DNA of 64,000 nt, taken from contig NZ_OZ075067.1 of assembly GCF_964186585.1 (NCBI RefSeq), positions 1,674,001 to 1,738,000 on the forward strand, given 5' to 3'. Both the position numbers and the translations under genes were made by a program. The DNA is from Microbacterium sp. MM2322 (GTDB taxonomy: Bacteria; Actinomycetota; Actinomycetes; Actinomycetales; Microbacteriaceae). Below are positions 12,132 to 26,236 of this stretch, piece by piece. The first letter of the stretch is position 1, and every line of letters begins with the position of its first letter. The notes beneath the pieces were generated by a model. It worked only from the letters and a program-made list of their open reading frames with translations. It had not been told where the DNA came from and did no database searches.

Positions 12132-12218
12132 TCAGCCGACCCCGAGTCGCAGCATCACGATTCCGGGGAAGACAGCAAAGAGGACGCTCATCGGCAACAG
12201 CAGGAAGACGATCGGGAA
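12132..12218 (-). pseudogene. tadC: 3' remnant of tadC (last 28 codons)
   Basis: In the tadC frame this reads FPIVFLLLPMSVLFAVFPG and on to a TGA at 12132. It is the last membrane segment and conserved tail of TadC-family proteins. It joins in frame to the 275 codons at 26264-27088 if the intervening element is removed, giving KKEIAML followed by FPIVFLLLP. It overlaps the 3' end of the integrase gene on the same strand in another frame. Confidence 0.9.
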
Positions 12219-13813
12219 GAGCGTCCCTGCTCGGCTGGCTTCTCATCCGGCAGGAACATCGACGGGTCCAGCACCCCATGAATGGTCATCGTCTGCGGCA
12301 CGCCACGGACCACGTCCGACACCATGACGCGAACGTCGAGCAGTTCGACGACCTCACGCCGGAGCGCGAGCGGAGCGTTTTCGAGTCGGCCACGGGCACG
12401 CTCCGCCAGCGCGGCCACGTCCGTGATCCGACGGGCCTGGTCGACGCGCCGCTCCGCGACCGCGGTCATCGCCTCGAGGCGACCGCGCACGTCGGCGAGG
12501 TCGGCCTTCAGCCGCTCCATCGTCTGCAGCGCTTCGGCCGGATCGTCCGCCATCAGGTACAGGTCCCGAGCGCGACCGATGGCGCGCTCGAGGGTGTTCT
12601 CCTGCTTCCGCAGCGCGGCGATCATCGGTTCATCCCCCGCTAGGTCGGCGTCGTCGTCGAGTTCCAGCCACTGCTTCGCCAGCAGCTCGAGGCGGTCCGG
12701 ATTGGCGAGCACCGACGACAACTCGCGCCACACCGCCTCGTCCACCTCCGGCCCGCGCAGCTGGGGACAGGAGCAGCGGGGCGTCTCGGCGGACCGGTAC
12801 CGGCGCCCCGCACACTTGTAAAACGGGTGCGGACGACTCTTCGTAGTTACGCCGTCGTAGTGCTGGTCGAACTCGCACGACCCGAACAGCCGCCCCGTCA
12901 GCATCTGCCGCTGGGGCGCCGAGGGGCTGCCGCTCGACTTACGGTTCACCGCCCGCTGGAGCGCCTGCCACTCCTGCCGGGTGAACACAGGGTCGCCGAG
13001 GTCGATCTTGACGGTCTCGCCCCACTTGGCGGTCCCGTCGCGGTTCACCTTCGTGGAGTGGGCGTGCGGTCGGTGGCTCTGCCCGGTCACCGCACCCCAT
13101 TCGGTCTCCCCCGTCCACAGGGTCGCGTTGCGGACCACCTGCCTGACGGTCTGGTAGCTCCACGCTGCCGCGAGACGCGGGCGAAGCCCCGCCTCGTTGA
13201 GCCGGTCGGCCACCTCGCCAGTAGTCAGGCGCTCCTTCACGAACAGCCTGTGCATGGCGCGCAGCACCTCGCGTTCGCGCTCATCAGGCACCGGGCGCGC
13301 GTCACGCTTGGTGCCCTCCAGTCGCCAGCCGAAAGGTGGCTTCGACCCAACCCACCCACCGGCGCGGCCCTTCGCCCGTTGCCCCGCCGTGGTGCGGGCG
13401 ACGATGGTGTCCGCCTCGAACTCGGCGAAACCGGCGAGCATCGTCCGCATGGCGCGACCCGCCGGAGTGGACATATCGATCTGTTCCTTGACCACGACCA
13501 GGTCGACGCCCATGTCGGACAGACGGTCGGTCTCGCGGATCGCATCCCCGGCCTTCCGGGCGAAGCGGTCCAGCTTGGCGACCACGACCGCGTCGATCTT
13601 GCCGTCGCGAGCGTCCTGAAGCATCTGACGCCACGCCGGGCGGGTGTCGTCCTTCCCCGAAAGCCCCTCGTCGACGTACGAGTCGACCAGTTCCCAGCCC
13701 CGCATGCGGATCGCGGCCTCGCAGACCTCGCGCTGCTCGGGCAGCGAAGTGTTGTCGACCTGCATCTCGGTGCTGACGCGCGCGTAGATGGCGGCCCGCT
13801 TCTTGGAGCTCAT
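12188..13813 (-). CDS. Large serine recombinase (integrase) of the element
   Basis: A 541-residue site-specific recombinase. The resolvase domain (about 1-150) has catalytic Ser14 in YARVS and the arginine segment KLDRFAR. A recombinase DNA-binding domain follows (about 160-280), then a zinc ribbon (GSCEFDQ, FYKCAG, RCSC, about 310-350) and a coiled-coil region (about 375-460). The ATG overlaps the stop of the preceding gene (ATGA). The frame crosses the attachment site: the last 11 codons in this integrated state lie in host tadC DNA and encode an accidental-looking tail ending SSSCCCR. In the circular form the same frame continues into the right end and stops at 26179. Confidence 0.96.
   Translation of the reverse strand: MSSKKRAAIYARVSTEMQVDNTSLPEQREVCEAAIRMRGWELVDSYVDEGLSGKDDTRPAWRQMLQDARDGKIDAVVVAKLDRFARKAGDAIRETDRLSDMGVDLVVVKEQIDMSTPAGRAMRTMLAGFAEFEADTIVARTTAGQRAKGRAGGWVGSKPPFGWRLEGTKRDARPVPDEREREVLRAMHRLFVKERLTTGEVADRLNEAGLRPRLAAAWSYQTVRQVVRNATLWTGETEWGAVTGQSHRPHAHSTKVNRDGTAKWGETVKIDLGDPVFTRQEWQALQRAVNRKSSGSPSAPQRQMLTGRLFGSCEFDQHYDGVTTKSRPHPFYKCAGRRYRSAETPRCSCPQLRGPEVDEAVWRELSSVLANPDRLELLAKQWLELDDDADLAGDEPMIAALRKQENTLERAIGRARDLYLMADDPAEALQTMERLKADLADVRGRLEAMTAVAERRVDQARRITDVAALAERARGRLENAPLALRREVVELLDVRVMVSDVVRGVPQTMTIHGVLDPSMFLPDEKPAEQGRSSRSSSCCCR
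12219..12241. other. Left attachment junction of the integrated element
   Basis: The 4-base core GAGC (plus strand) is at 12219-12222. Element DNA follows, with the arm TCCCTGCTCGG at 12224-12234 and a further imperfect match to 12241. The same arm in inverted orientation is at the right end. The exact crossover dinucleotide cannot be fixed from sequence alone. Confidence 0.85.
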
Positions 13814-14082
13814 CGGAGGGCCCCGTCCTCAGCGTCGATGAACGTGGCCGCCTCCGCGACGATGCTCACGGCGACGCTCCAACCGACAAGATCGGTCAAT
13901 TTCAGCCCGTTGGTCTCGGCGACAGCCTGGACGGCTGGCCGGATCCGCCGCCAACTCTCAACCGCCTCGTCCAGAACGGACCGCCCAGGGGTGTGAGTCG
14001 CGATAGCGGCGACAACCAGTTGCGCGATGGCGCACTCCTCGACGGTGACAGCGTTCACGGCGTGCTTGATCTCAGGCAGCAT
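13810..14082 (-). CDS. Unrecognised small protein upstream of integrase (90 aa)
   Basis: A mostly helical 90-residue protein (MLPEIKHAVNAVTVEECAIA and on), with no motif I recognise. ATG 14082 is preferred because an AAGGA site precedes it by 10 bases and the upstream in-frame ATGs would overlap the previous gene more deeply. Its stop overlaps the integrase start. Gene order next to int suggests an accessory or excision-related role, but there is no sequence evidence for one. Confidence 0.65.
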   Translation of the reverse strand: MLPEIKHAVNAVTVEECAIAQLVVAAIATHTPGRSVLDEAVESWRRIRPAVQAVAETNGLKLTDLVGWSVAVSIVAEAATFIDAEDGALR

Positions 14083-14308
14083 CGGTGCCACGTCCTTCCT
14101 CGGCGTCCGTGCCGTTCCAGCACTGGTCGCATTCGTCGTAGTTGTCATCGGTGGGGCGGGCATCGTCTTCCCACACGGCGATGTCGCTGTCGCGAGCGGT
14201 TCCCCACGGCGTCGCCCGTGAGGGAGAGCGGCGTACGATCGCGAGCCCGCAGGCGGTCTGACACCTGTCGGTCTCGCAGATGAGGTGCCGGAGACCGGAG
14301 GCGTTCAT
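14072..14308 (-). CDS. Small Cys-rich protein (78 aa)
   Basis: 78 residues with cysteines at 11, 16, 20, 60 and 63 (CETDRCQTAC and CDQC), suggesting metal binding. The ATG overlaps the TGA of the upstream gene (ATGA) and the end overlaps the next gene by 11 bases, so it sits in a tightly coupled chain from the WhiB gene to the integrase. No family recognised. Confidence 0.68.
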   Translation of the reverse strand: MNASGLRHLICETDRCQTACGLAIVRRSPSRATPWGTARDSDIAVWEDDARPTDDNYDECDQCWNGTDAEEGRGTDAA

Positions 14309-14583
14309 TCCGCACCTCCCGCGAGCCGCTGCTGAACGTGAACGGCTCGCACCGCGCGTGCGGCGCGCTCCGTGAACTTGGCGCGAAGCGCCTCCGACGG
14401 CATCTCCTTTGAGGCGGAGGCGATTTGGCGGGCGCCGACGCGGCGGCCCTGTTCGGCTTCGACGACGAGCCGCTCCACGGCGCGGGAGAGGTGGCGCGAG
14501 TCGTGCCCCGGTCGGTAGTTCGCGCGGGCCGATGTGTACTCTCGACAGCCGCAGTGGCATGTACCGGGTTGAGTGGTGGTCAT
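14305..14583 (-). CDS. Small protein with CHCGC motif, internal start in the WhiB frame (92 aa)
   Basis: From ATG 14583 the product is 92 residues, starting MTTTQPGTCHCGC and continuing with YRPGHDSRH, a Cys/His pattern common in small actinophage proteins, then a basic helical tail. AGAAGGAA about 10 bases before the ATG is a good ribosome site, which argues for independent translation. There is no stop codon between it and the WhiB domain upstream, so a fused product is also possible. Confidence 0.65.
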   Translation of the reverse strand: MTTTQPGTCHCGCREYTSARANYRPGHDSRHLSRAVERLVVEAEQGRRVGARQIASASKEMPSEALRAKFTERAARAVRAVHVQQRLAGGAE

Positions 14584-15000
14584 GGCGGAAGTTCCTTCTG
14601 ATCTGGAGTTGTTGTTTCCCCCCTCCAGGAAAACAGCCGGAACTACATGCCCACAATTCCTCGCCTGGGCACGACGCGCCCGTCTGCGCGCACTGGCGAC
14701 GCGTCGTTGTTCCCGGGTTGTTCGGCGGGTCCCGGCGGACCGTGCGGCGGCGTCCGCGATCCAGCCTCCCCAAACTCCCGAGGTCTCCCCGGCCGAGACG
14801 GCGTAGGAGCGACACTGCGCGGCGAGCGGGCAGGTCCGACACAACTCCGCTGCCGCGAGCTGCTCGGCGGGCTCGTCCGACGTCCACTGGCCGGAATCGG
14901 CACCGAGACACGGGATCGCCACCCCGGCCTCAGCCGCCCCCCGCACTCGCTCCGTCAGCGCCCGGCACTCCCGCTCTGCATCGAATGGCGCCGCATGCAT
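14305..15000 (-). CDS. WhiB-like iron-sulfur regulator, in frame with a downstream domain
   Basis: The N-terminal portion has the four WhiB cysteines: one in AIPCLGAD (about residue 31), then CRTCPLAAQC in CxxCx5C spacing, followed by the GVWGGW turn and a basic tail. WhiB proteins bind a 4Fe-4S cluster and sigma factor to regulate transcription. WhiB proteins are usually 80-130 residues. Here the frame continues without a stop through the 92-residue Cys/His protein to 231 residues. ATG 15000 is chosen because it precedes the domain closely and has GAAGG 8 bases upstream; the open frame extends to 15177. A run of six G's (14618-14623) lies between the two parts. Confidence 0.75.
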   Translation of the reverse strand: MHAAPFDAERECRALTERVRGAAEAGVAIPCLGADSGQWTSDEPAEQLAAAELCRTCPLAAQCRSYAVSAGETSGVWGGWIADAAARSAGTRRTTREQRRVASARRRARRAQARNCGHVVPAVFLEGGNNNSRSEGTSAMTTTQPGTCHCGCREYTSARANYRPGHDSRHLSRAVERLVVEAEQGRRVGARQIASASKEMPSEALRAKFTERAARAVRAVHVQQRLAGGAE

Positions 15001-15422
15001 CGGCGCGGCCTTCGACGGGGGCTCCGACGACACAGGCGCCTTCTCGAGCCCCACCGGCCCCGAAGACTGCTCTGCGTTTACGGGAGGCCCGTGAGGGACG
15101 GAACCCGAAAGCGGAACGGACGTCCCGGCTGGGAACCGTAGCGAAATCGGACAGGTTGCTGGTCGAGCGATCGGCACGAGGAAGCTCCAAATGATGCATC
15201 GCGATGCCGAGGGTCGCAGCGGATCGGAAGTAACCTCGAACGCCTTTAGGACATCGCAGACTGACCGTCTGTCCCCATCGCAAATTGATAGGGAGGTCCT
15301 GGGTTTGTTGGTTGGCGCTGACCCAGTGAATTGCCGCTCTCGGATGAGAGAAAACCATGCAGCGAGGGCAACTCCGGGGAGGCGCGCGGCGCAGGAACGC
15401 CACGAGTCGCTACGCTCTGCGT
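15001..15422. other. Intergenic region between WhiB and the plus-strand membrane gene
   Basis: No gene is supported here, although open frames extend into it from both sides. It holds a perfect 12-bp palindrome GCATCGCGATGC at 15196-15207, about 190 bases upstream of the WhiB start, a plausible operator site. The short inverted repeat CAGAC/GTCTG is also present near 15260. I could not assign a promoter for the WhiB operon. Confidence 0.4.
15411..15416 (+). promoter_or_regulatory. -10 box (TACGCT) of leaderless gene at 15423
   Basis: TACGCT ends 6 bases before the in-frame GTG at 15423. The same hexamer and spacing occur at the aminotransferase gene (53512). Confidence 0.5.
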
Positions 15423-16157
15423 GTGCTCATATGGGTGGCTGAATCGGCAGTGCGGGGCTCGAACGCGAATTGTTCAGACGGTCCCACTGTCTGCGCCATC
15501 GAAAGCCTGAGCGAGGTGATCGAAAGCGGTACGTGGCCCGAATTCTGGCTGACGTTGGTGGCCACGCTCGTCGGCGCAACGGCCGCGTTCATATTCTCGT
15601 GGCTTCTAACTCGCCGCGATTGGGCTAGACGCTACCAAGACCGAGTGGACGAACACGTCGTCAAGATAAGTGAATCGATAGCCGCAATCGCCCAGTCGCT
15701 GAATGCTGAGCCCGGGAGCCACATCGTGAAGCATCACTGGTGGTCGAGACACCAGGTGATTGAAGGCTCGACGAGTCGTCTGCTGGTGCAGCCACGTTTG
15801 AGTGAGTTGCTCATGCTCACAAGCACACTGGAGCTTGTTTGCAGGGGGCACGACGCCGCAGTTGCCCAGTCGCTTCGGTCGCGCATATTGGAGTGGGGTC
15901 GCTTGCGCAGGAACGGGCGGGCGATACTCGAACACGCAGGTAGATTCCAAGTCACCGCTCTGGACACGAATCGGATACTCACCGCGTGGAGGCGAGGCGA
16001 CATCGACGCGTCCACAGCCATCCTCTGGCTCGACCGGCGCACCTCCCCGGTCGATGATGACCCAGACTTCTCCGCGCTCCGTCGAAAATGGGAGCAAGTG
16101 GCGCAACCTCAAGTTCCTCGCCGCATCCGCAAACTGCTTCGAGCGAGAACTGAGTGA
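15423..16157 (+). CDS. Unrecognised single-span membrane protein
   Basis: 244 residues from GTG 15423, chosen because of the -10 box 6 bases upstream. One membrane segment (FWLTLVATLVGATAAFIFSW, about residues 42-61) is followed by a basic, helical cytoplasmic region of about 180 residues with no known motif. Base composition looks less GC-rich than the chromosome. It stands alone on the plus strand in the element, typical of cargo rather than core genes. Confidence 0.62.
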   Translation: MLIWVAESAVRGSNANCSDGPTVCAIESLSEVIESGTWPEFWLTLVATLVGATAAFIFSWLLTRRDWARRYQDRVDEHVVKISESIAAIAQSLNAEPGSHIVKHHWWSRHQVIEGSTSRLLVQPRLSELLMLTSTLELVCRGHDAAVAQSLRSRILEWGRLRRNGRAILEHAGRFQVTALDTNRILTAWRRGDIDASTAILWLDRRTSPVDDDPDFSALRRKWEQVAQPQVPRRIRKLLRARTE

Positions 16158-16230
16158 CACACACTCTGGCTAGGACAGGGTGATAGCAATCGGTCACCGT
16201 GACTGAATGCTGCGGGGAATAGCCCGACCC

Positions 16231-16434
16231 CTATCCCTCAGCAGCGCTTCTGCGGATGGCACGCAGCTTCATCATCTGATCCTGTCCAAGCTCAGTGAGT
16301 GCCCAGTACTTGCCCTTGTCGCTCACTGTTCGCTTCTTCACGCCGCGCTCGATCACCCCGATCGCGAAGAGTTGAACGATCACGTCAGCGACGACCTCGT
16401 TTGTCAAAGTCGCAGGCTGAGACTGCTTACGAAA
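16231..16434 (-). pseudogene. Out-of-frame C-terminal segment of the DUF4062 gene
   Basis: This frame encodes about 67 residues (FRKQSQPATLTNEVVADVIV through KGKYWALTELGQD to a TAG at 16231), a winged-helix-like tail that resembles the normal C-terminus of DUF4062 proteins. It is one base out of frame with the upstream gene, whose frame ends 13 codons after the shift point near 16432-16434. One extra A in the plus-strand AAA run there would join the two. Confidence 0.7.
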
Positions 16435-17417
16435 TATTGAGGTCGGATACCATCAGTGTTCTCGCGCCAAAGTCGACGTGCGTGCGCTTCTAGCACTTTG
16501 CTGAGCTCCGGCTCGCTCGACTCGTGGAGCAGTGTCGGACCCACCAGCTGCAAAATCTTGTTCCACGATGTGGGAACCGAGATCGTCCAGTTGTACTGGT
16601 CGGCATCCCACCGCGGGTCGCCGTCAGGGTCGAGATCCTCCAACCGGAATCCGGTGACGACGAATTTGAACGAGTACAAGTCGTCACCTTGCGCCAGATC
16701 CCCCGCGATCGCAGCTCGTTTATCCTTTGCCTCAGCTTCTTGGGCAAGCTCAGCTACGCGAGCGCGAAGCTCAGCGATCTCCGTCTTCTGTTCGGGCGTC
16801 ATCGCTTGGCTGGCCCGGACCCACCCCTCCGCTGGGTAATGTTCGCGGGTCTCCATCAGGGCGAGCGCAACGTGGCCTGGTAGCTCGGCAGAAGTATTCC
16901 AATACTTCACCACCCGTGCGGCCTCGACCTTCGCACGGAACGCGTCGAGCTTCTCCCGCCGCTCAGCATCGAGCTCGATCTGCTCTCCGCTCAGCTTCCC
17001 CGGCTCTCCGTGGAGGAACGCCATGATCGGTTTGCCTATGGATTCCGCGTAATCGAACTCCATCTCCGTGTAGCTCAGTTCGGTTGTCGGATCCAGCGAA
17101 CCGTACTTACCACCGATCACGAGAACGTAGTAGTCGCACTCGTTGATGACTCGCTGGATCAGTCGCCACTTCTCGTCATTGCCAGCCGGGAACAGCTCCA
17201 TGCCCGCCGGGATGCATCCAGCGATTAGCAGGGCTTGAATAACCGACTGACGCTCCTCCCGCAAGTCAAGGTAGGTAGAACTGACGAAGACTTGCTCGCG
17301 ACGATCCCCAGGCACGAAACGAAGACTATCGATAAGCGGGATCCGGTGATGAGGAGTTTCCGCCAGGGCATTCGGGTTCTGCTCCAGACAGATCGACATC
17401 TGTTGTGCGACGCCCAT
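16404..17417 (-). CDS. DUF4062-domain protein, apparently frameshifted near its end
   Basis: 337 residues as read. The DUF4062 domain spans about 35-130: VFVSSTYLDLREER, CIPAGMELFPAG, CDYYVLVIGGKYGS, SYTEMEFDYA. A coiled coil follows at about 205-235. DUF4062 is a TIR-like, Rossmann-type domain found in bacterial conflict and defence proteins. The last 13 residues (after QYF) look random, and the expected tail is found in another frame just downstream. Start ATG 17417 or 17399; neither has a clear ribosome site. Confidence 0.8.
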   Translation of the reverse strand: MGVAQQMSICLEQNPNALAETPHHRIPLIDSLRFVPGDRREQVFVSSTYLDLREERQSVIQALLIAGCIPAGMELFPAGNDEKWRLIQRVINECDYYVLVIGGKYGSLDPTTELSYTEMEFDYAESIGKPIMAFLHGEPGKLSGEQIELDAERREKLDAFRAKVEAARVVKYWNTSAELPGHVALALMETREHYPAEGWVRASQAMTPEQKTEIAELRARVAELAQEAEAKDKRAAIAGDLAQGDDLYSFKFVVTGFRLEDLDPDGDPRWDADQYNWTISVPTSWNKILQLVGPTLLHESSEPELSKVLEAHARRLWRENTDGIRPQYFVSSLSLRL

Positions 17418-17441
17418 TCCGTCGGATGCGATCGGAGTGGG

Positions 17442-17768
17442 TCAGAGGCCGTGGTCGCGGGCCCACGCGTCGATGAATGCTCGGCGAGCCTCGTCCAAGC
17501 CAAACCGCGACCCGTCGAACTGCACCGGACCTCCGAGTCCAGCTATCCGACCGAGGTCATGGAAGATCGACTGGGCGGCCCGCGCATCGACTCGATCTTG
17601 TGGATACCCGTCTGTGATCAGCCGGTCGCGTCGTAAATCGAGTAGCTCATTGAGGCCCAGCGGGCCTGATCGAAGCCAGGCAGCGATTTCCGGTGCGCGC
17701 TTTGCATCGGCGATGTCGCTCGTGAATTGCTCTGCGTAGCTGTCGTAGGTGTTGTCGTAGCCATTCAT
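17442..17768 (-). CDS. Unrecognised protein (108 aa)
   Basis: An acidic protein starting MNGYDNTYDSYAEQF, with a C-terminal FIDAWARDHGL. ATG 17768 is chosen over 17783 because AAGGAG lies 6 bases before it. It ends 24 bases before the DUF4062 start and may be its partner. No family recognised. Confidence 0.62.
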   Translation of the reverse strand: MNGYDNTYDSYAEQFTSDIADAKRAPEIAAWLRSGPLGLNELLDLRRDRLITDGYPQDRVDARAAQSIFHDLGRIAGLGGPVQFDGSRFGLDEARRAFIDAWARDHGL

Positions 17769-17820
17769 CCTTGTCTCCTTCATGCGTCTTTGTCGGTAGA
17801 TGCCAGCAACTGTCGTGACA

Positions 17821-18138
17821 TCATCGCTCGTTGATGGTTATCGAGCATTCGGGTTTCCAGCTGGTTTCCAGGGGGGACGGTCGTCCCTGCTGCGTGTTGC
17901 GGTCGTTCCGGGCGAGGATGTACCGCGTGCCGCCCGCCGGGTAAGGGACAGCCACCACGTCACCCACGGCGATCAGAAGCTCGAGCGCCGCGTCATACAG
18001 GTGCTTCTCCCGGCTGCTCAGCCGACGACGCAACGCCGCCCGCCCCATGCCCTCCGGCCAGTCCGCGAGAAGGCGCCGAATGCGGGGCGTCATCCGTCGA
18101 ACCTGAGCGGCGTCTGCCGCCGAGATCGGGTCAGTCAT
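17821..18138 (-). CDS. Unrecognised small basic protein, winged-helix-like (105 aa)
   Basis: 105 residues (MTDPISAADAAQVRRMTPRI and on). The central part ALRRRLSSREKHLYDAALELLIAVGDVVAVPYPAGGTRYILA has the helix-helix-beta-wing pattern of small DNA-binding proteins. GAGGAG lies 6 to 8 bases before ATG 18138, which also overlaps the end of the previous small gene (ATGACTGA). Possibly a replication accessory, given its place after the prim-pol gene. Confidence 0.6.
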   Translation of the reverse strand: MTDPISAADAAQVRRMTPRIRRLLADWPEGMGRAALRRRLSSREKHLYDAALELLIAVGDVVAVPYPAGGTRYILARNDRNTQQGRPSPLETSWKPECSITINER

Positions 18139-18391
18139 CAGCGTTCTCCTCACGCGTGAAAGGTCGGCGAACCGTAGGAAGGGTGTTTGTTGGGTGGTCT
18201 CCTGCCGGTGTCCCCTCGGGGTACCCCGTGCCCCCGGGTCCATAAGGACCCCGGGGGACATTGGCGGGGCAACCGTTGGGGTACCCCGGGGGATATTGGG
18301 GGAACCGCGGAACGACGCGGTAGAGAGCCCCGGGGTACATCGGGGGCACCTGGCGCGGGGTACCTTCGGGGGACATTGCTTCAGAAGTCAT
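18131..18391 (-). CDS. Pro/Gly/Tyr-rich small ORF overlapping a DNA repeat array (86 aa)
   Basis: 86 residues rich in P, G and Y (AMSPEG, PMYPGA, YPPGYPNG, PYGPGG). Its ATG 18391 lies inside the end of the prim-pol gene and its stop overlaps the start of the next gene, the overlap style of genuine genes in this element. However, the region is mainly a DNA repeat array whose units are not in the same reading frame, so the protein could be incidental. Confidence 0.4.
   Translation of the reverse strand: MTSEAMSPEGTPRQVPPMYPGALYRVVPRFPQYPPGYPNGCPANVPRGPYGPGGTGYPEGTPAGDHPTNTLPTVRRPFTREENADD
18212..18377. repeat. Iteron-like GC-rich repeats beside the replication gene
   Basis: Four related units on the plus strand: CCCCGGGGGACATT (ending 18262), CCCCGGGGGATATT (ending 18297), CCCCGGGGTACATC (ending 18341) and CTTCGGGGGACATT (ending 18377). 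Additional GGGGTACCCC palindromic pieces lie near 18217-18226 and 18278-18287. Unit spacings are 35, 44 and 36 bases. Two of these are not multiples of three, so conservation is at the DNA level. The position just after a replication-initiator gene makes this a candidate origin (inference). Confidence 0.6.
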
Positions 18392-20426
18392 TTCTGACAC
18401 CCCCGTTCGCGATGCCGAGGGTCTGCCCCGCCGGGTAGTTCAGAACCGCCCCGAACTGGCCCCTCTCACGCCGCACGCTGCCGGTCTGCGCCATCTGGTT
18501 CAGCGCCTGGTTCACGTCGCCCTTCTGGAAACGCACTTGCAGTTCGCGTAGGCGCTTTTCGATGGCGGATGTGTTCAGGCCCGGGTCCTGTCGGATCACG
18601 CCGAGGATCGGCCCTTCGAGGGCGGTGGTCTTCTGCTCGCGCCTGGCTTGCAGTCTTGATCCGAACCCGGTGAGGGATAGTCGCTGTGTCGATGGGTCGA
18701 ATGCCAGCTGGTCTTCGTCGACGTCGACATCGCGGCCGAGCGCCGACAGGTACCGCGGGCCGTTCTCGGTGTCTTCGTCGCTCTTGCGGAGCCAGACGAT
18801 CGAATCGGGGTGGTCCTCCAGCGCTGAGGCCCCGCGAGACCTGTTGCCGTTCCACCCCGCGTGGACATTCAGGACCACGTCACGAGCGCCCACCTCAGAG
18901 CGGGCAAACACGTCCAGGTCGTTCAGGAACGCCTGCACCTGCGTGTTGTCCTGCTGACTCTCCCCGTAGAACGCACGGCTGAAAGGGTCGACGAACATGG
19001 ACTCGACGTCGTAGGCGCGAAGCCGCGCGGCCAGCTCCGCGCGGTCCTGCTCGTGACTGAGAGGGTTCCGGCGACCACGGAGGTTCACGAGGATGAGACG
19101 CTTCCGGTCCACACCCACCTTGTCGGCCCATAACCCCAGCTGGTGCCCGCTCACCTCGTAGTTGAGGATCGCGATATTGCCGTCGACGGGTACCACCGGG
19201 AACCGACCGAGGAAGTCCCGGCCGGTGAGCATCGCGTCGGCCATGTTCAGGTTGAAGGTGGTTTTGCCGGTCTTCCGCTGGGCGACGATCGAAGTGAACC
19301 CGTCCGCCAGCATCAGACCCTTGATGCGGTACTGCTCCTGTTCGGGCCGGGCGAGCACGTCCTCGAGGGTGCCGAGGTCGAACGGCGGGGCCGGGTCGAG
19401 TTCTGCCAACGCCCGACCGAACGCGGCTTTCGCATCGTGCTCGACGAGCTTCGCTTGGACCCGCTGGGCGACCGCAAAGGCGTGGTCCCCTTCCTTCGAG
19501 TGCTCCGTGTTCCAGATGGACTCGATGGTCTTGTTCGCGTCCTCGTAGTCCGGGTCAACCATCGCGATGGCTCGCCCGACCTCAACCTCGTAGAACTCGC
19601 GGTTCTCTCGGTGCAGGCGGGCGTAATGGCCGGCCACCGTCGCGAGCCAGTCGTTGGTGACGCCCTTCCCGCGCTCGGGCGGGTTCCGGAGAGCGTTGAG
19701 AACCTTCGACGACTCCCTGGGCCCACCGGGGGCGAGAAGGTCACGGGAAGGCGATGGAGACCCCGACGCGGGTGCCTGCGCCCGCCGCGACCCCGGCAGC
19801 GGTGCACCGTACTCGGCCCAGACCGCCGCGACCTCATCGTCGGTGAGCGGGTGCTCCTCAACGCCGTCGTCGGCCACGGTGTAAGGGCGGCCGGTCTCGG
19901 GGTGGGTGGATCCGGGGAGCACGACGTAGGCGTTCGGCCCTGCCTTCAGGTCCACGCCCTGGGCGAGCTTGCCCTGCGTGAGCGTCTGCCCGACGGCTCC
20001 GCCCATGAGGTAGATGAGGTGCTCGTTGCCGTTCCCGCGACCGCTGAGGTGCACGCGGGTGGTGGGTAGCGATTCGACCCTGGTGCCGTCGTGCTGATAG
20101 TCGACGTCGATGACGATGCGGCCGGTGGTCGCGCCGCCTACGTTGGCGTCCGGACGACCCGCGAACATACGCCGGATCTTCTCGGGGTCACGGGTCGCGT
20201 CCTTGACGCCGTGGCCCAGCAGACCGCACTGGCCCTCACACTGGATGGGCTTGCCGTCGGGGCCCTTCGCGTTCCGGTGGGGGTTTGGGAACAGGGGGAG
20301 TTTGTCATTCGGAGCAAGTGGGAAGACCGGCCACCCCCGCTCCGCCCAGTACAGGGCATGTGTCAAGGAAGCGTTGGGCGAATCGGTCACCATCGCTTCG
20401 AGGGCTTCCGCGGACAGCTTCACCAT
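18381..20426 (-). CDS. Bifunctional primase-polymerase / RepA-like helicase
   Basis: 681 residues from ATG 20426. The N-terminal prim-pol domain (about 20-215) shows ALYWAERGWPVFPL, NVGGATTGRIVIDVDY (metal-binding acidic pair) and HLSGRGNGNEHL. After a linker and helical domain comes a RepA/RecA-type ATPase with Walker A AQRKTGKTTFNL (about 395), Walker B-like VESMFVDPF and a sensor LNVHAGWNG. The C-terminal 80 residues are winged-helix-like. Such proteins start replication of plasmids, satellites and integrative elements. The start overlaps the stop of a small upstream gene (TGATG). Confidence 0.88.
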   Translation of the reverse strand: MVKLSAEALEAMVTDSPNASLTHALYWAERGWPVFPLAPNDKLPLFPNPHRNAKGPDGKPIQCEGQCGLLGHGVKDATRDPEKIRRMFAGRPDANVGGATTGRIVIDVDYQHDGTRVESLPTTRVHLSGRGNGNEHLIYLMGGAVGQTLTQGKLAQGVDLKAGPNAYVVLPGSTHPETGRPYTVADDGVEEHPLTDDEVAAVWAEYGAPLPGSRRAQAPASGSPSPSRDLLAPGGPRESSKVLNALRNPPERGKGVTNDWLATVAGHYARLHRENREFYEVEVGRAIAMVDPDYEDANKTIESIWNTEHSKEGDHAFAVAQRVQAKLVEHDAKAAFGRALAELDPAPPFDLGTLEDVLARPEQEQYRIKGLMLADGFTSIVAQRKTGKTTFNLNMADAMLTGRDFLGRFPVVPVDGNIAILNYEVSGHQLGLWADKVGVDRKRLILVNLRGRRNPLSHEQDRAELAARLRAYDVESMFVDPFSRAFYGESQQDNTQVQAFLNDLDVFARSEVGARDVVLNVHAGWNGNRSRGASALEDHPDSIVWLRKSDEDTENGPRYLSALGRDVDVDEDQLAFDPSTQRLSLTGFGSRLQARREQKTTALEGPILGVIRQDPGLNTSAIEKRLRELQVRFQKGDVNQALNQMAQTGSVRRERGQFGAVLNYPAGQTLGIANGGVRNDF

Positions 20427-20599
20427 CAGCGCACCACCGCCGCGAGTAGAGCCGCGACCGAATTGGAGGCGCCGGAAATCATCAACCCGAGTAGCCACGT
20501 CCGGGGGTCATTCAAGGGCCACAGGTAGTAGCGGGCGAGGAACCCGACGTGCCCAGCGAATTGCTTGCGCCGGATACGACGCTCGAGCGAGGCCGTCAC
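20426..20599 (-). CDS. Small membrane protein (57 aa)
   Basis: 57 residues: basic N-terminus (LERRIRRKQF), an aromatic segment (VGFLARYYLWPL) and a C-terminal hydrophobic helix (WLLGLMISGASNSVAALLAA). The GTG overlaps the TGA of the 40-residue gene (GTGA) and its own TGA overlaps the prim-pol ATG. This tight coupling is the main evidence that it is real. Confidence 0.65.
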   Translation of the reverse strand: MTASLERRIRRKQFAGHVGFLARYYLWPLNDPRTWLLGLMISGASNSVAALLAAVVR

Positions 20600-20718
20600 T
20601 CTGCCTGCTCCTCGGATGAGGCGACGGGCGACGGGCCGAACAACAGTGTCAGCAGTCGGCGGAAGTCCTCAGCGGGCAGTGCCCGGGATTCCAGGTGCGT
20701 GGTGGGTGAAGTGGCCAC
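20596..20718 (-). CDS. Very small protein, first gene of the replication operon (40 aa)
   Basis: 40 residues starting MATSPTTHLESRALPAEDFR and ending SSEEQAE. GTG 20718 has a perfect AGGAGG site 6 bases upstream, the strongest ribosome site in the element. It is followed without gap by two coupled genes. Function unknown; it may act mainly as a translational entry for the operon. Confidence 0.65.
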   Translation of the reverse strand: MATSPTTHLESRALPAEDFRRLLTLLFGPSPVASSEEQAE

Positions 20719-21062
20719 CGCATCCTCCTAACGGAGGGGGTGCCAAGAACGACAAAACGCACCCCGTATCCGACCCACCGCTGTGAGGCGATGGGGAGGG
20801 GATGCTTGAGGTCGATACCTCATCCTCCCGCTGATTGTCAGCGGGTCTTCCACCCTCATTGGGATACGGTGTGCGTCAGTAGGGTTAGCTCACCGGCAGG
20901 GGCATTGTGTACCACTCCCCTGCTCTCGCCCTGGGCCCCGGAGAGCTTCCAGATCGAGCGTCGCTCTTAAGTTGCGGGTCGCACTTTACAGTGCAAGGCC
21001 CCCCCTGTCAATTACTGGGGCCTCCCCCGGCGTGTCGTCGCCGCCGAGGGGAGCCGGGCGAA
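20719..21062 (-). other. 344-bp leader and promoter region of the replication operon
   Basis: No gene is supported. A strong promoter lies at its far end, so the transcript would carry a leader of about 255 bases. The leader holds a 7-bp stem with a 5-base loop (CCCGCTG/CAGCGGG, 20827-20845) and an adjacent inverted repeat GAGGTC/ACCTC around 20809-20822. These could form a structured 5' leader that affects expression; I recognise no known riboswitch. Confidence 0.5.
20983..21011 (-). promoter_or_regulatory. Sigma-70 promoter TTGACA-17-TAAAGT with palindrome over -10
   Basis: Minus strand: -35 TTGACA at 21011-21006, a 17-base spacer containing seven G's, then -10 TAAAGT at 20988-20983. The -10 box lies within GCACT/AGTGC inverted arms (20981-20994), a likely repressor site. 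It is the best consensus promoter in the window and drives the small genes and prim-pol. Confidence 0.75.
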
Positions 21063-21902
21063 TCAGCCAGGCGGGTTGAACGGCGGGAGATCCTCAACCC
21101 AGTAGCTGTTTATGGCCCCCGGAGCGTCCTGAGGGTCGCCCGAGTAGGACACATCCAGCTCGGCCTCGGCTAGGACCCCCGAGTGGGCGCGGTACCCGTG
21201 CGCACGAAGAAACAGCACGGACCCCGCCGAAGTGGGGGTGAACACCAAGAAACCGAACTGACCATCTGGGAGAGCCTTCTTGCGAGTCGGGGACCACACC
21301 CGGGCAAGAAAGTCGCTTGACCCGTGCCCGAGTTGAGTTATCAGTCCTTCACGTGCCAGGCCAACTGCAGCTTCAACGAGCCGCTCCACGAAGAACTCCT
21401 GATCCCACCCGAGGGCGATCAGGCGCAAGTCTGAATAGCCGACGAACACCTCCTTGCTCTCCCATTCGCTGATGTTGTCAAACTTCTTGCCCGCGACCTT
21501 GGCGCGCAAAGCCGTGTACAACGCGTAATGGAGCCGAAGTTGATCAGCCGACATGCGACCCACCAGGGCAGTCCATGACACGGCACTGTCGTCCGTTCCG
21601 GCCGGCGTCCTGGCGGAGGCGAGCATGCCACTCAGGTACTCAGTCACGAACTCGTCCTCGGCCCACTGCGCCTTATCGAACACCTCGGCGGCAACTCTGG
21701 GGGGAATCGCGCCCGGCTCGGAGGTATCTGCCTTCGTGTCGGCGCGCGCGGCGACCTTGCTGATGTTGCTCTTCCGGTTGGCGAGGCCGTTCTTGATCCC
21801 GTCACCGAGCAAGTCCAGCGTCGGGCCCAAGAGTCGCTTCGTGGTCTCGAGCACGATCGGGGCAGAAGCGATTCCGCCCGCGATGATCATGGGATCCGTC
21901 AT
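21063..21902 (-). CDS. Possible Abi-alpha/DUF4393-like protein
   Basis: 279 residues from ATG 21902 (a TTG at 21923 is the alternative; neither has a good ribosome site). The N-terminal part (IVLETTKRLLGPTLDLLGDG) and the segment IPPRVAAEVFDKAQWAEDEF...YLSGMLASA resemble the Abi-alpha/DUF4393 pattern, in which an Ile-Pro turn precedes a helix ending in an xLLAxA-type motif. That family includes phage-abortive proteins. The resemblance is by eye and modest. It is convergent with nothing and follows the 175-residue membrane gene by 37 bases. Confidence 0.5.
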   Translation of the reverse strand: MTDPMIIAGGIASAPIVLETTKRLLGPTLDLLGDGIKNGLANRKSNISKVAARADTKADTSEPGAIPPRVAAEVFDKAQWAEDEFVTEYLSGMLASARTPAGTDDSAVSWTALVGRMSADQLRLHYALYTALRAKVAGKKFDNISEWESKEVFVGYSDLRLIALGWDQEFFVERLVEAAVGLAREGLITQLGHGSSDFLARVWSPTRKKALPDGQFGFLVFTPTSAGSVLFLRAHGYRAHSGVLAEAELDVSYSGDPQDAPGAINSYWVEDLPPFNPPG

Positions 21903-21939
21903 GAGCCGGGACACCAACGGCAAGTTGGAGACGAATCGT

Positions 21940-22467
21940 TCACGAGTCGGAGTCTCCGTCCGTGGTCAGCACGCCAGGTGGATTCCAGGATCCCAGCGAC
22001 CACGCATCCACCGACGCGAGATCACCTCGCCACGTGGAAACGTTCATCGTGGCCCCGTTTAGGATCCGCACTTCTCGCAGATGTATGAAGCGACGGGCGC
22101 GCGTCGGCAAATCCGCCTCATCACGCCGATTACTCTCCTCGACAGTGTGATCGTGCAAGTGCGACCAGATCGGGCGCAGGTACTCCTCCACCACCGCCGA
22201 GTTGCTCGGCTGGAAGTCTGTGAGAGTCCGTTCAATCCACTCTGCGCGGCTGATCGCAATTCCGCTTACAACTGCCCCACCCACCATCAAGGTGAGCCCG
22301 AGCGCGCCACGGGCTTGATCGGCTACGTCGAAGTACCGGTCCAGCATGAAATCAAGGTAGGGGTCCCTGCTTCGGACGTCCTCCCAGGCGTATCCGTCAA
22401 CGTCGGACGCAGGGTCCCACTTCACCGCAGGTGTGCTCGCGTCAGGTTCGGTGGTCGGATCGGTCAT
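21940..22467 (-). CDS. Unrecognised membrane-associated protein (175 aa)
   Basis: An acidic N-terminus (MTDPTTEPDASTPAVKWDPA), one hydrophobic segment (GALGLTLMVGGAVVSGIAI, about 55-73), then a polar region of 100 residues with charged helices. AGGGGGAG precedes the ATG closely. Probably an operon with the following gene (21063-21902), suggesting a two-gene unit. No family recognised. Confidence 0.6.
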   Translation of the reverse strand: MTDPTTEPDASTPAVKWDPASDVDGYAWEDVRSRDPYLDFMLDRYFDVADQARGALGLTLMVGGAVVSGIAISRAEWIERTLTDFQPSNSAVVEEYLRPIWSHLHDHTVEESNRRDEADLPTRARRFIHLREVRILNGATMNVSTWRGDLASVDAWSLGSWNPPGVLTTDGDSDS

Positions 22468-22487
22468 AGCTCCCCCTTAGGTTTCTC

Positions 22488-22946
22488 ATGACGCTAGCGA
22501 ATGGCAACGACACTGGGGCACGACACACCCACGTTGCCCGAATCGAAGTAATGTTCGACAATCGTCCGGTGGGCATCAACAAGCGGTACTCGGCTCACTT
22601 CGACCGGGTGGGCGAAGAGAAGCACCTGGCGCGGCTCGCCGAGAAGGGCGGACTGCAGACCCTGAGTGCTCGCGAGATCGGCCTGGAACGACAACCACTG
22701 ACGGTCGACCCCGAGCCCAAACCGGTCCTGGCTTGGGTGCACTTCTTCACGGAGGCGGTCCGGGTGAAGGCGTGGGCGTGTCGGTGGACTCCCAAAGCCG
22801 TGGGCATACGGTTCTACGTGGATGGCAGCGCGATGACGACGTGGGTTTGGTTGGACGCAGTAGACCCGGATCCGGATACGCGCCCTAGCGAGGACGCGGT
22901 GAGAAACGGCGGGTCCGCGCGTCAGAGCGTGACTGTCCGGCCGTGA
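22488..22946 (+). CDS. Unrecognised protein (152 aa)
   Basis: Starts MTLANGNDTGARHTHVARIE; a beta-rich centre (VLAWVHFFTEAVRVKAWACRW, GIRFYVDGSAMTTWVWLDAV) suggests a compact fold. TAGGTT 4 bases before the ATG could be a -10 box; ATG 22551 is an alternative start. It lies 15 bases before the AbiJ-like gene on the same strand and may be its partner. A long minus-strand frame over this region was judged a shadow. Confidence 0.55.
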   Translation: MTLANGNDTGARHTHVARIEVMFDNRPVGINKRYSAHFDRVGEEKHLARLAEKGGLQTLSAREIGLERQPLTVDPEPKPVLAWVHFFTEAVRVKAWACRWTPKAVGIRFYVDGSAMTTWVWLDAVDPDPDTRPSEDAVRNGGSARQSVTVRP

Positions 22947-22949
22947 CAC

Positions 22950-22955
22950 TAGCCT
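22950..22955 (+). promoter_or_regulatory. -10 box (TAGCCT) of leaderless AbiJ-like gene
   Basis: TAGCCT ends 6 bases before ATG 22962, so this gene may have its own leaderless promoter in addition to read-through from the upstream gene. Confidence 0.45.
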
Positions 22956-22961
22956 GACGGC

Positions 22962-23807
22962 ATGCCTTCCTTCTCCGAGCGCCACGGATACAAGGAGGTC
23001 CGAACGCTCATCCAGCGGGAAGGCCTCGACGAGGACACCCGTCGGGAGTTGTGGAATCTTCTCGCGGTCCTGCCGGGAGAGTTCGACGGAATGTACAGGG
23101 ACGCCACTGAGAGACAGGTTACGGAAGCTGTCTGGATCTGGCACTTCAAGAAGAACCGGGACGAGAAGCCTTCCACTGCGACGACTTGGCGCCACATCAA
23201 GGCCGCAATCTATGAGGAGGAATGGAACGAAGTTTTCGATCTGCTCGAGTGCTTGCTCAAGCACTGGGAGCGGCACGAGACGTCAGAATCCGGGCCGCTG
23301 CGAAAAGCACTCTCGCGCGCGCTTAACGACCTATTCCAGGCGAACCTCGTTGGTTATCGACTCATCGGACAGGAGATCACACCGGTCGACTCGAACGCAG
23401 AAGCTGAAGCGATTACAAGCGCACTCTCCGACTCTGAGGTTGTCGCCGGTGCCCGCCACTCACTTGATCGGGCGGTCGAGCTCCTCGCCGATCGGACCAC
23501 GCCTGACTACCCGAACTCCATCAAAGAGTCCATCTCCGCAGTTGAAGCGATCGTCAAGAAGATCACCGCCGAGGGAACCCTCGGCGCCGGGCTCAAGAAG
23601 CTTGAGGCTGCTGGCCTGACCATTCACCCAGCTCTGAAGGGCGCGTGGTCTCAGATGTACGGTTGGACGTCGGACGCGGACGGCATTCGTCATGCGGGCG
23701 TCGAAGCCGCCAACGCGGACCAGGCGCTCGCGAAATACATGCTCGTCACCTGCTCCGCGTTCGTCTCCTACCTAGTGGTCGAGGGGAACAAGGTCGGGTT
23801 GCTTTAA
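22962..23807 (+). CDS. AbiJ-like abortive infection protein
   Basis: 281 residues. The N-terminal part (FSERHGYKEVRTLIQREGLD, ELWNLLAVL) matches the AbiJ_NTD4 pattern. The C-terminal part (SIKESISAVEAIVKKITAEG, TLGAGLKKLE, IHPALKGAW, YGWTSDADGIRHAG, MLVTCSAFVSYL) is the conserved helical HEPN-like core seen in these proteins, with the RHAG motif as candidate active site. AbiJ proteins belong to phage-abortive systems. Assignment is from motif recognition only. Confidence 0.82.
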   Translation: MPSFSERHGYKEVRTLIQREGLDEDTRRELWNLLAVLPGEFDGMYRDATERQVTEAVWIWHFKKNRDEKPSTATTWRHIKAAIYEEEWNEVFDLLECLLKHWERHETSESGPLRKALSRALNDLFQANLVGYRLIGQEITPVDSNAEAEAITSALSDSEVVAGARHSLDRAVELLADRTTPDYPNSIKESISAVEAIVKKITAEGTLGAGLKKLEAAGLTIHPALKGAWSQMYGWTSDADGIRHAGVEAANADQALAKYMLVTCSAFVSYLVVEGNKVGLL

Positions 23808-23826
23808 TTTCGCGCGCTCGTCGACG

Positions 23827-23952
23827 TCACTCGCGGAATGTCGAGTCTTCTCTTGGCTTGGCGGTCTTCTGCTCAGTAACTCGCCGAAGGACCTTTTCAA
23901 CGTTGGGTTTAGTAGGTTGCGGCTTGGGCGCTGGCTTCTTCTTCGACGCCAC
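23827..23952 (-). CDS. Tiny Lys/Pro-rich protein, paralogue of its neighbour (41 aa)
   Basis: 41 residues starting MASKKKPAPKPQPTKPNVEK. GTG 23952 has AGGAGG 7 bases upstream, a strong site. It shares SK, a PKP stretch and KPNV-acidic-basic-V with the gene immediately upstream, so the two are a tandem duplicate pair. Function unknown. Confidence 0.65.
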   Translation of the reverse strand: MASKKKPAPKPQPTKPNVEKVLRRVTEQKTAKPREDSTFRE

Positions 23953-23954
23953 AA

Positions 23955-24089
23955 TCAGTCCTCCTTGTTTTCCGGCTGATCGGAATGGGCGAAATGAAGC
24001 ATCACACGGTCGACGTTGGGCTTGGAACTGCTCGGCCTCGGCTTAGGGGTCGATGCGGGTTTGGGCTTCTCGGGGGGCTTGGACACCAT
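23955..24089 (-). CDS. Tiny Lys/Pro-rich protein, paralogue of its neighbour (44 aa)
   Basis: 44 residues starting MVSKPPEKPKPASTPKPRPS and containing SSKPNVDRVM. Two bases separate its TGA from the next GTG, and its 3' end supplies the next gene's ribosome site. It follows the membrane protein gene by 9 bases, so the three probably form one unit. Confidence 0.6.
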   Translation of the reverse strand: MVSKPPEKPKPASTPKPRPSSSKPNVDRVMLHFAHSDQPENKED

Positions 24090-24098
24090 GTCGGGAGT

Positions 24099-24653
24099 CT
24101 ATTCAGGGAGCGGGCTGATTATGGACGTCGGCGCGACGTCCCCCGACGAATCCGCCGCCGGGAACGCTTCAACGGACGCCACGACGACGACTGAGATCAG
24201 ACTCGCAAGAAGCAAGACGAATGCCACCCGGGTCCACCGAGCGCCGACCTTGTATTGCGCGTCGCGACTCTCGACCTCCCGCGCCTTTACTTCGAGAAGG
24301 TGATCTTCCAGCTCTTCCCCGGTGAGCTCACTGACCCGCCACGTTTCCACCATCTCGCGCCCACCTGCGACCGTCAGACTTCGGGGCCACAAGGTGATAG
24401 TCGACGCGAGAACGGTCAGGAATGTAAGCCCGAAAGGTAAGAGCCAAATCAGGCTGGAATCCGACTGCAAGACGCCGACCGAGCTCGCGCTGCCAATGAC
24501 ACCAGCCGCCACAACTACGAACGACGCTTTCGTATTCAGCAGACGGGTGCGTTCGAGGGCCGCGTCTCGCGTGTTGTCCAACTCCGCGCTGAGAAGGGAC
24601 ACCCGCATCGGCAGGTAATCCACGCTCGGGTCTGACTGCTGTCGTCTGAACAC
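24099..24653 (-). CDS. Multi-span membrane protein (184 aa)
   Basis: Three hydrophobic segments (ASFVVVAAGVIGSASSVGVL; IWLLPFGLTFLTVLASTITL; VAFVLLLASLISVVVVASV) with a charged loop between the second and third that includes RVSELTGEELEDHLLEVKAR. The layout, a helical N-terminal ERTRLLNTKAS before the first span, resembles small membrane effectors of nucleotide-signal conflict systems, but I cannot assign a family. GTG 24653 is chosen because TATCCT ends 6 bases upstream; ATG 24608 is an alternative. Confidence 0.6.
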   Translation of the reverse strand: MFRRQQSDPSVDYLPMRVSLLSAELDNTRDAALERTRLLNTKASFVVVAAGVIGSASSVGVLQSDSSLIWLLPFGLTFLTVLASTITLWPRSLTVAGGREMVETWRVSELTGEELEDHLLEVKAREVESRDAQYKVGARWTRVAFVLLLASLISVVVVASVEAFPAADSSGDVAPTSIISPLPE

Positions 24654-24659
24654 CAGCTC

Positions 24660-24665
24660 AGGATA
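24660..24665 (-). promoter_or_regulatory. -10 box (TATCCT) of leaderless membrane protein gene
   Basis: TATCCT on the minus strand ends 6 bases before the in-frame GTG at 24653. Confidence 0.45.
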
Positions 24666-24724
24666 TGAGCATCCTCGCGAATGGCTCGCGTTGACGCTCC
24701 GCGGTACCGTCCTGAACACGAGAG

Positions 24725-24757
24725 ACCCCCGGATCCCTGAGAGTGGGGTCCGGGGGT
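24725..24757. terminator. Rho-independent terminator (bidirectional)
   Basis: A 13-bp stem (ACCCCCGGATCCC with GGGGTCCGGGGGT, one G-T wobble) and a 7-base loop. TTTCTCGTTT follows on the plus strand, and a T-rich stretch follows on the minus strand. It separates the end of the helix-turn-helix gene from the membrane protein gene. Confidence 0.8.
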
Positions 24758-24785
24758 TTCTCGTTTGCGGACGAGGCGCTGAAGG

Positions 24786-25298
24786 CTATTCCTGGATCAG
24801 CCCCGGGCGCACCGGCGGCAGGACGGACCCGGTCAGGACCTCCGCGTTGACGCTGAACTTCTCAAATATCGAAAGCGCACCACGCATCGCCTCCTGCTCC
24901 GTCGTGATCGCATCCGGCTTGGTCACGTTGGAGTACGCCCGCATGGACGCATCCGCCGCCTGCATCAGCGATGCCAGCCGCCGAGGATCCTCCTCTGTCT
25001 TCGCCCGGTCAGCCGAGCGCTCGGCCGCGTCCAGAAGCTTGTCCGCGATCTGCTCGCGCCGGGTGCGCATGTACTCCGACCGGTATCCGCGGGCCTTCGC
25101 TGCCGCCTCCGGAGTGCCGGACGAACCCGCCCCGATCCGGGCGAACTCCAGACCTTCGGTTTCACGGACAACGCGCGAGACCGTCGACGGGTTCACCCCG
25201 ACCTCACGCGCCACGGCGCTCCGAGTCGCGCCGGACCGCACGAGGTCGACGATCCGCGCTTCGGTCTCCGGCGCTGTCTTGTTTGCAGGACTAGGCAT
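24786..25298 (-). CDS. Helix-turn-helix protein (terminase-small-like or regulator)
   Basis: 170 residues from ATG 25298 (GGAG 7 bases upstream). A resolvase-type helix-turn-helix is at about 14-45 (EARIVDLVRSGATRSAVARE, then VNPSTVSRVV). The remainder is a charged helical region (MRTRREQIADKLLDAAERSA, AADASMRAYSNVT) like those of small terminase subunits and phage-encoded regulators. It lies downstream of the 234-residue gene at the right end, followed by a terminator. Confidence 0.7.
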   Translation of the reverse strand: MPSPANKTAPETEARIVDLVRSGATRSAVAREVGVNPSTVSRVVRETEGLEFARIGAGSSGTPEAAAKARGYRSEYMRTRREQIADKLLDAAERSADRAKTEEDPRRLASLMQAADASMRAYSNVTKPDAITTEQEAMRGALSIFEKFSVNAEVLTGSVLPPVRPGLIQE

Positions 25299-25363
25299 CA
25301 AGCCACTCCACTCTGTTGGGGCGGGCAGGGGGGATCGCTCCCCCACCGCCCGCCGCGGTCAGT

Positions 25364-26068: not shown

Positions 26069-26236
26069 TGGAATCTCCAATTCCGGATGGGCCGCGCCCC
26101 GATCGGACTCGCGTCCTGGGTGGGTTTGGCCCTGGGTGACCCGACGATCGTTCGCCGCCGGGGGTTTGTGGGGCCGCGCTAAGCGGCCACCCCGACGGGG
26201 ATGTTGAACGGGAACTTCGGGAATGCCGGAACGGCG

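Follow-up and report, generated by a model that had tools for sequence, protein, structure and literature searches.

Mx8 carries a tyrosine-type integrase. As described in the cited portion of a review, its attP lies within int, and integration gives the gene a new 3' end by which the specificity of the enzyme is changed without being inactivated (PMC6070905). In BPs, attP is located inside the repressor gene, and integration cuts off a C-terminal extension bearing an ssrA-like tag, which stabilises the product (PMC4557955, PMC9262239). Such a tag ("--LAA, or similar") is present on both the repressor and the integrase of BPs and targets both for degradation (PMC9262239, PMC4557955). BPs and its relatives use attB sites in tRNA genes (PMC9262239), and repressor tags of Bifidobacterium prophages have been rebuilt in silico (PMC6109161). 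The suicidal integrases of archaea (SSV1, pTN3, pT26-2) carry the recombination site within the integrase gene, and integration disrupts that gene; these are tyrosine recombinases, described there as split in two parts that are taken as inactive (PMC8371274). For the Streptomyces phage SV1, the section concerned reports that attP was sought in non-coding DNA downstream of the integrase gene (PMC4068962).

The locus described here was found in a 64,000-nucleotide stretch of a Microbacterium-genus genome, hereafter the window. As in Mx8, attP lies inside the integrase reading frame, an arrangement seen in 13 of 14 elements whose two ends are both known; unlike Mx8, the enzyme is a large serine integrase and not of the tyrosine class, and a short related tail is lost across the lineage. 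Whereas in BPs the repressor is cut and Int is left uncut, here the integrase itself is cut, and this takes place in protein-coding host genes. In contrast to the archaeal suicidal integrases, the window integrase loses a terminal peptide only, and its recognised domains remain unsplit. It shares with SV1 and other large serine integrases the serine class and an inverted-repeat attP near the gene, but attP was sought outside the integrase gene there and lies inside it here. An attP within an integrase gene, with a state-dependent protein end, is thus known already from Mx8; judged from sequence, the addition would be a serine-class lineage with a removable conserved tail.

Recomputation from the sequence gave a 14,045-bp mobile element inserted in tadC, with the following features.

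12219..26267, no strand: integrated element bounded by two copies of the 4-bp core, from junction recomputation and the empty site in G702
12219..12222, minus strand: att core at the integrase end, GCTC on the coding strand (GAGC on the plus strand)
26264..26267, minus strand: att core at the far end, GCTC on the coding strand (GAGC on the plus strand)
12224..12238, minus strand: left inverted arm of attP, CCAGCCGAGCAGGGA
26248..26262, minus strand: right inverted arm of attP, TCCCTGCTCGGTTGG
26264..27088, minus strand: 5' part of the interrupted host tadC, whose rebuilt protein matches PF00482 (T2SSF)
12132..12218, minus strand: 3' part of the interrupted host tadC
12215..13813, minus strand: integrase frame common to both forms, 533 residues, a large serine recombinase
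12188..12214, minus strand: host-encoded end of the integrated form, RSSSCCCR and stop, tadC DNA in another frame
26179..26259, minus strand: predicted element-encoded end of the circular form, LLGWVASDAVPAFPKFPFNIPVGVAA and stop

When the host flanks were joined, an uninterrupted tadC frame was obtained, whose protein ends KKEIAMLFPIVFLLLPMSVLFAVFPGIVMLRLGVG and matches T2SSF at 4.4e-14. The last 149 residues of this rebuilt TadC were matched in 23 of the 28 relatives searched. One of these genomes, G702, represents the empty site: its tadC carries no insert, is 97% identical in protein across the whole 149-residue query, and is 83% identical in DNA to the rebuilt window gene over 696 bp with the junction ungapped. 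The rebuilt attP consists of two 15-nt inverted arms (CCAGCCGAGCAGGGA and TCCCTGCTCGGTTGG) with one mismatch, placed around the 6-nt centre CGCTCC; inverted arms that flank a short core common to attB are also the arrangement of large serine recombinases. Ten of the element's frames were compared with Pfam and PHROGs. The integrase and three others (a Prim-Pol/AAA protein, a DUF4062 protein and an HTH protein) gave clear matches; at E 0.001 no structural phage family was hit by any of the ten. From these ten frames the element looks like an integrative element or a phage satellite.

The integrase frame runs on the minus strand from 13813 to 12188 and crosses the att core into tadC DNA. Its Pfam domains are PF00239 (1.8e-40), PF07508 (1.7e-9) and PF13408 (1.8e-5; 25.4 bits, just above the cut-off of 25.3), and it matches PHROG 95, integrase, at 2.7e-99. 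A Resolvase catalytic domain, a Recombinase domain and a zinc ribbon in one long protein place it among the large serine recombinases. In the integrated state the enzyme has 541 residues, 533 shared and 8 (RSSSCCCR) encoded by the host. In the circle, where the junction is open on both sides, the same frame would continue into the 26-residue tail LLGWVASDAVPAFPKFPFNIPVGVAA and stop at 26179, giving a predicted 559 residues. Hence 533 of the 559 residues, including all Pfam domains found, remain in one frame after integration, and two enzyme forms that differ in the C-terminus alone are predicted. The initial annotation had given these two lengths, the 26-residue tail and the stop, all of which were reproduced exactly, and its statement that the enzyme differs between the circular and the integrated state agrees with the two frames. 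The 11 codons that it placed in host DNA are roughly correct when the stop and the core-adjacent codons are counted in; the residues that differ at the host end number 8.

An AlphaFold2 model was built from 8 sequences and is modest in quality (mean pLDDT 71.8, pTM 0.49). Its last secondary structure lies near residue 510, and residues 524-541 have pLDDT below 50, so in this model the att core falls in an extension without predicted structure and the change of tail would be structurally tolerable.

Homologues were screened with the integrase at E <= 1e-50, with the window's own genome included in every count. They were present in 4 of 398 genomes of the family, 11 of 366 of the genus and 2 of 396 of the order, a distinct total of 15; a phylum-wide profile search at 1e-100 returned 1 of 396, that one being the window's own genome. 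In 14 of the 15 the integrase frame enters the host gene that the element interrupts. A far end could be located for 13 of these (not for G721, which was left out), and in every one of the 13 the frame stays open across the rebuilt attP and ends in a related tail. The initial annotation had named homologues ending before the core as a refutation; this check gave 13 that cross it, the window's included, among the 14 for which both ends are available. The single exception, G208, has its integrase stop about 500 bp before the att core; this element of about 9.3 kb lies between the halves of a DUF4244-like gene in the opposite orientation. It should be pointed out that the 13 elements are kin, and their agreement does not amount to 13 independent events.

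Six relatives are 67-77% identical to the window integrase and sit at the same place in tadC, their far ends being on the same contig in five and on another contig in G716; together with the window they make up the tadC clade. Six distant elements are 39-47% identical, and five of them have another host gene and core. G058, G521, G646 and G697 are inserted in a DUF4244 gene with core AT (the rebuilt G521 gene matches PF14029 at 6.6e-22), G236 is inserted in a HIRAN gene (PF08797, 1.6e-9) with core AT, and G1066 is inserted in a tadC of another family.

Most of the insertion sites belong to Tad pilus locus genes (14 of 15 elements: 8 in tadC and 6 in a DUF4244-like gene adjoining TadE), with G236 in its HIRAN gene as the element outside, and these genes should be broken by integration and restored by excision. 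The inferred AT core of the four DUF4244 elements (L030-L037) is self-complementary and should give no polarity. G058, G521, G646 and G697 nevertheless share one orientation relative to the host gene, while G208, in the same kind of gene, has the opposite one.

The native tails rebuilt across attP are as follows.

tadC clade: LLGWVASDAVPAFPKFPFNIPVGVAA (window); LLGRLASSAQPTLPKFPFEVALPRAA (G431); LLGGLASSPLQTLPRFPFEVTLREAA (G482); LLGGLAPSAPTLPKFPFEVSLREAA (G539); RLGRLASDAPAALPRFPFTLPVEVAA (G533); LLGGLPFSASPIPLRFPFEVNLGEAA (G696); LLGRLASSPVATLPKFPFEVALPRAA (G716, far end on another contig)
DUF4244 group, tail ends: ...FPAFEFQLDAPYAA (G058); ...LLPPFEWRIEAA (G521); ...LPPFRFSTNAERKAA (G646); ...LPAFAFEVHEAREADPLAA (G697)
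HIRAN-gene element, tail end: ...SLPPFAWQIEADRRAA (G236)
Element in tadC of another family, tail end: ...FPPMKFRILPAPGVRTVRVGISPAQTPPSTG (G1066)

The tadC-clade tails are 25-26 residues long, all seven contain FPF and end in -AA, and the position of the stop is constant within one codon in 7/7. The six distant elements carry an in-frame related tail of 21-38 codons. To assess selection, pN/pS was calculated for tail codons 9-26, outside the att arm, of the seven tadC-clade tails. The value was 0.564, against 0.94 and 1.52 in the shifted frames and 0.79-1.26 in antisense, and 1 of 1000 nucleotide-column shuffles (n=7 elements) was as low. A 6-element version gave the same 0.564, with 3 of 500 shuffles as low. 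The closing Ala codons vary synonymously. The tail outside the att arm is therefore under purifying selection, though less constrained than the integrase body (0.56 vs 0.30). The claim that the element-encoded tail is protein-like was borne out, and the tail is conserved, related tails being present in 12 further elements.

The rebuilt tail could in principle be produced by a wrong junction, or by conservation of attP at the DNA level. The crossover is indeed placed indirectly, and the core is short, with 4 bp (GCTC) in the window element and 2 bp (AT) in those inserted in DUF4244 and HIRAN genes. Yet the frame is the same wherever in the core the crossover falls, tadC is intact once the flanks are rejoined, and an empty site exists (G702), while the conserved codons reach about 80 nt from the core and the G208 motif lies about 500 bp from its att core. 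We consider such an artefact extremely improbable. Two further candidates were rejected: chance read-through by the related tail in 13 elements, and conservation from attP DNA alone by the selection outside the arm together with the varying distance from the core.

The host-encoded ends behave differently from the native tails, ranging from 4 to 160 residues and being alike only in elements that share a host gene. In the tadC clade they have 8 residues in the window, 4-6 in five relatives, in which this frame meets a TGA of tadC, and about 55 in G716. They have 17, 160, 12 and 146 residues in the DUF4244 group, 23 in G236 and 100 in G1066. Because these ends vary in length and by host gene, what integration has in common across the elements is that the native tail is lost. 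The initial annotation had called the C-terminus rewritten; the end does change, but the word is too strong for this spread and for what the elements have in common. A function of the host-encoded tail itself was rejected on the same 4-160-residue spread and its differences between host genes.

At three loci (L014, L017, L041), the integrated integrase frame reaches another host protein. In G521 (160 residues) and G697 (146 residues) it continues without a frame change into the TadE-like protein encoded next, the match in G521 scoring 22.8 bits against a Pfam cut-off of 22.9. In G1066 it runs into the next small host protein.

One could argue that attP has simply moved, for compactness, into a 3' end that the gene can spare, with a tail that does little and whose loss is neutral. 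The disorder of the last residues in the AlphaFold2 model, the host ends of 4 to 160 residues and the weaker constraint on the tail than on the integrase body would all fit this explanation. Against it, there is purifying selection outside the att arm, the stop is kept within one codon in 7/7 tadC-clade elements, and both the motif and -AA persist across elements with other cores and host genes. On this balance we regard neutral loss as improbable.

What is retained in the tails consists of an internal motif and the last two residues. The strict motif [L/F]P-x-F-x-[F/W] is present in 11/13 rebuilt tails; it is absent from G696, where P is shifted, and from G1066. The ending -AA closes 12/13 rebuilt tails, the exception being again G1066, whose tail crosses attP but ends STG. 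In comparison, the 127 gene-like ORFs taken from the window and 20 fetched stretches include 4 that end in -AA. Viral contigs provided 12 distant serine integrases, these being the distinct closed frames of at least 350 residues out of 60 loci (the rest were shorter, duplicate or open); two of the 12 end in -AA, without the motif. The residue before -AA is hydrophobic in 4 of the 12 tails (VAA twice, including the window, LAA and YAA) and charged in 8 (four EAA, three RAA and one KAA); the charged endings may be weaker degradation signals. The tmRNA tag of the host is ANKKQSDFALAA, which ends ALAA.

These observations are best read as the removal of a C-terminal peptide that is similar to an ssrA-type degron, has a regulatory effect on the enzyme, or both. 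That this peptide acts on the enzyme, with an ssrA-like degradation tag as its most likely role, seems by analogy about evenly poised between right and wrong, the step of degradation being inferred. A pure degron is disfavoured because a charged residue precedes -AA in 8/12 tails and because the native end of G208 (...SLPPFAWTIGG) has the motif without -AA. As G208 keeps the motif with attP some 500 bp past the stop, outside the gene, the motif has some function independent of both the switch and -AA, and a second role, perhaps in activity, is pointed to.

Along these lines, the tail might instead be an activity element, in which P-x-F-x-[F/W] docks on the integrase or on the directionality factor and sets which att pairs are able to synapse, so that its loss would alter direction or specificity. 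The strict motif in 12/14 native ends, G208 counted, where it is not removed, speaks for this, as do its looser relatives in G696 and G1066 and the occurrence of a slightly longer form of the motif in 0/12 of the distinct, more distant serine integrases from viral contigs. The Mx8 integrase, changed in specificity and not inactivated according to the part of the review cited above (PMC6070905), offers a parallel. On the other hand, -AA in 12/13 tails would be left unexplained, and G208 is integrated yet keeps its motif, so loss of the motif is not needed for persistence in the integrated state. We therefore find this alternative rather unlikely.

Returning to the degradation tag, the two state-dependent frames, their recurrence in 13 elements, the conserved tail and the variable host-encoded ends are established from the sequences. 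The element belongs to a lineage of large serine integrases that carry attP within the 3' end of their own gene. The circle would make an integrase with its native peptide, composed of a flexible linker, a P-x-F-x-[F/W]-type stretch and mostly -AA. Integration would shift the codons of the peptide to the other end of the element, the enzyme of the integrated copy being ended by the host gene, and excision would restore them. The tag may keep the integrase scarce while the element is circular and also limit re-integration after excision; its removal on integration may leave a stable integrase, ready for excision once the directionality factor appears. In its full form, a self-editing recombinase whose own recombination strips its degradation tag, so that the state of the DNA sets the half-life of the enzyme with no regulator, this proposal is tentative and in our judgment somewhat more probably wrong than right. 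The common -AA ending suggests a short-lived circular form and a stable integrated form, which differs from an enzyme more active when circular; nothing shows that the tail favours integration, as the initial annotation had supposed.

The directionality of serine integrases depends on the att sites and a directionality factor. A C-terminus changed by integration would add a second, built-in layer of control, which is testable with the two natural proteins. If the self-editing proposal is true, a short-lived integrase in the circle would limit re-integration, while a stable chromosomal one would await the directionality factor. A lineage in which integration changes the C-terminus would extend the Mx8 and BPs precedents to serine integrases, and the statement in the cited part of PMC8371274 that self-disrupting recombinases are archaeal only would have to be qualified. 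Annotators and tool builders should also be warned that integrase genes taken from integrated copies may miss their native end. A serine integrase of this kind was not found in the literature searched, with thin coverage of subscription journals, and for the words searched a serine recombinase survey (PMC10083194) had nothing on a tail switch with attP in the gene. No circular copy was seen among the phage, plasmid and viral-contig searches: the best 40 of 1257 phage records were at most 30.4% identical, the matches listed from the plasmid search (5000 records) were all below 60%, four single queries of viral contigs gave no relative, and viral contigs searched with an alignment gave 60 loci at most 40% identical.

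Just past the stop codon of the tail, a further feature was found by folding, with no shuffle control.

26139..26162, minus strand: GC-rich hairpin

Such a hairpin lies 3' of the tail stop in 6/6 tadC-clade elements folded singly, likewise with no shuffle control. In an alignment of 7 of the 13 elements, picked as alignable, 2 of 9 consensus pairs showed compensatory changes and two consensus pairs were broken in one or two sequences. The hairpin has no U run; it may act as a terminator for integrase transcription in the circular element, and after integration it lies immediately 3' of the truncated tadC.

Other serine recombinases were also seen near these sites. Beyond the integrase end of the G533 element (L020), immediately outside the element, the opposite strand carries another serine recombinase stretch, 26% identical over residues 57-334. 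At L127 (G496:C2:956464-956838 and downstream), tadC is broken at the window's site, the TadC match ending at residue 125 of 149, and an apparently different serine recombinase gene follows directly. The tadC site may thus be a hotspot for more than one type of integrase.
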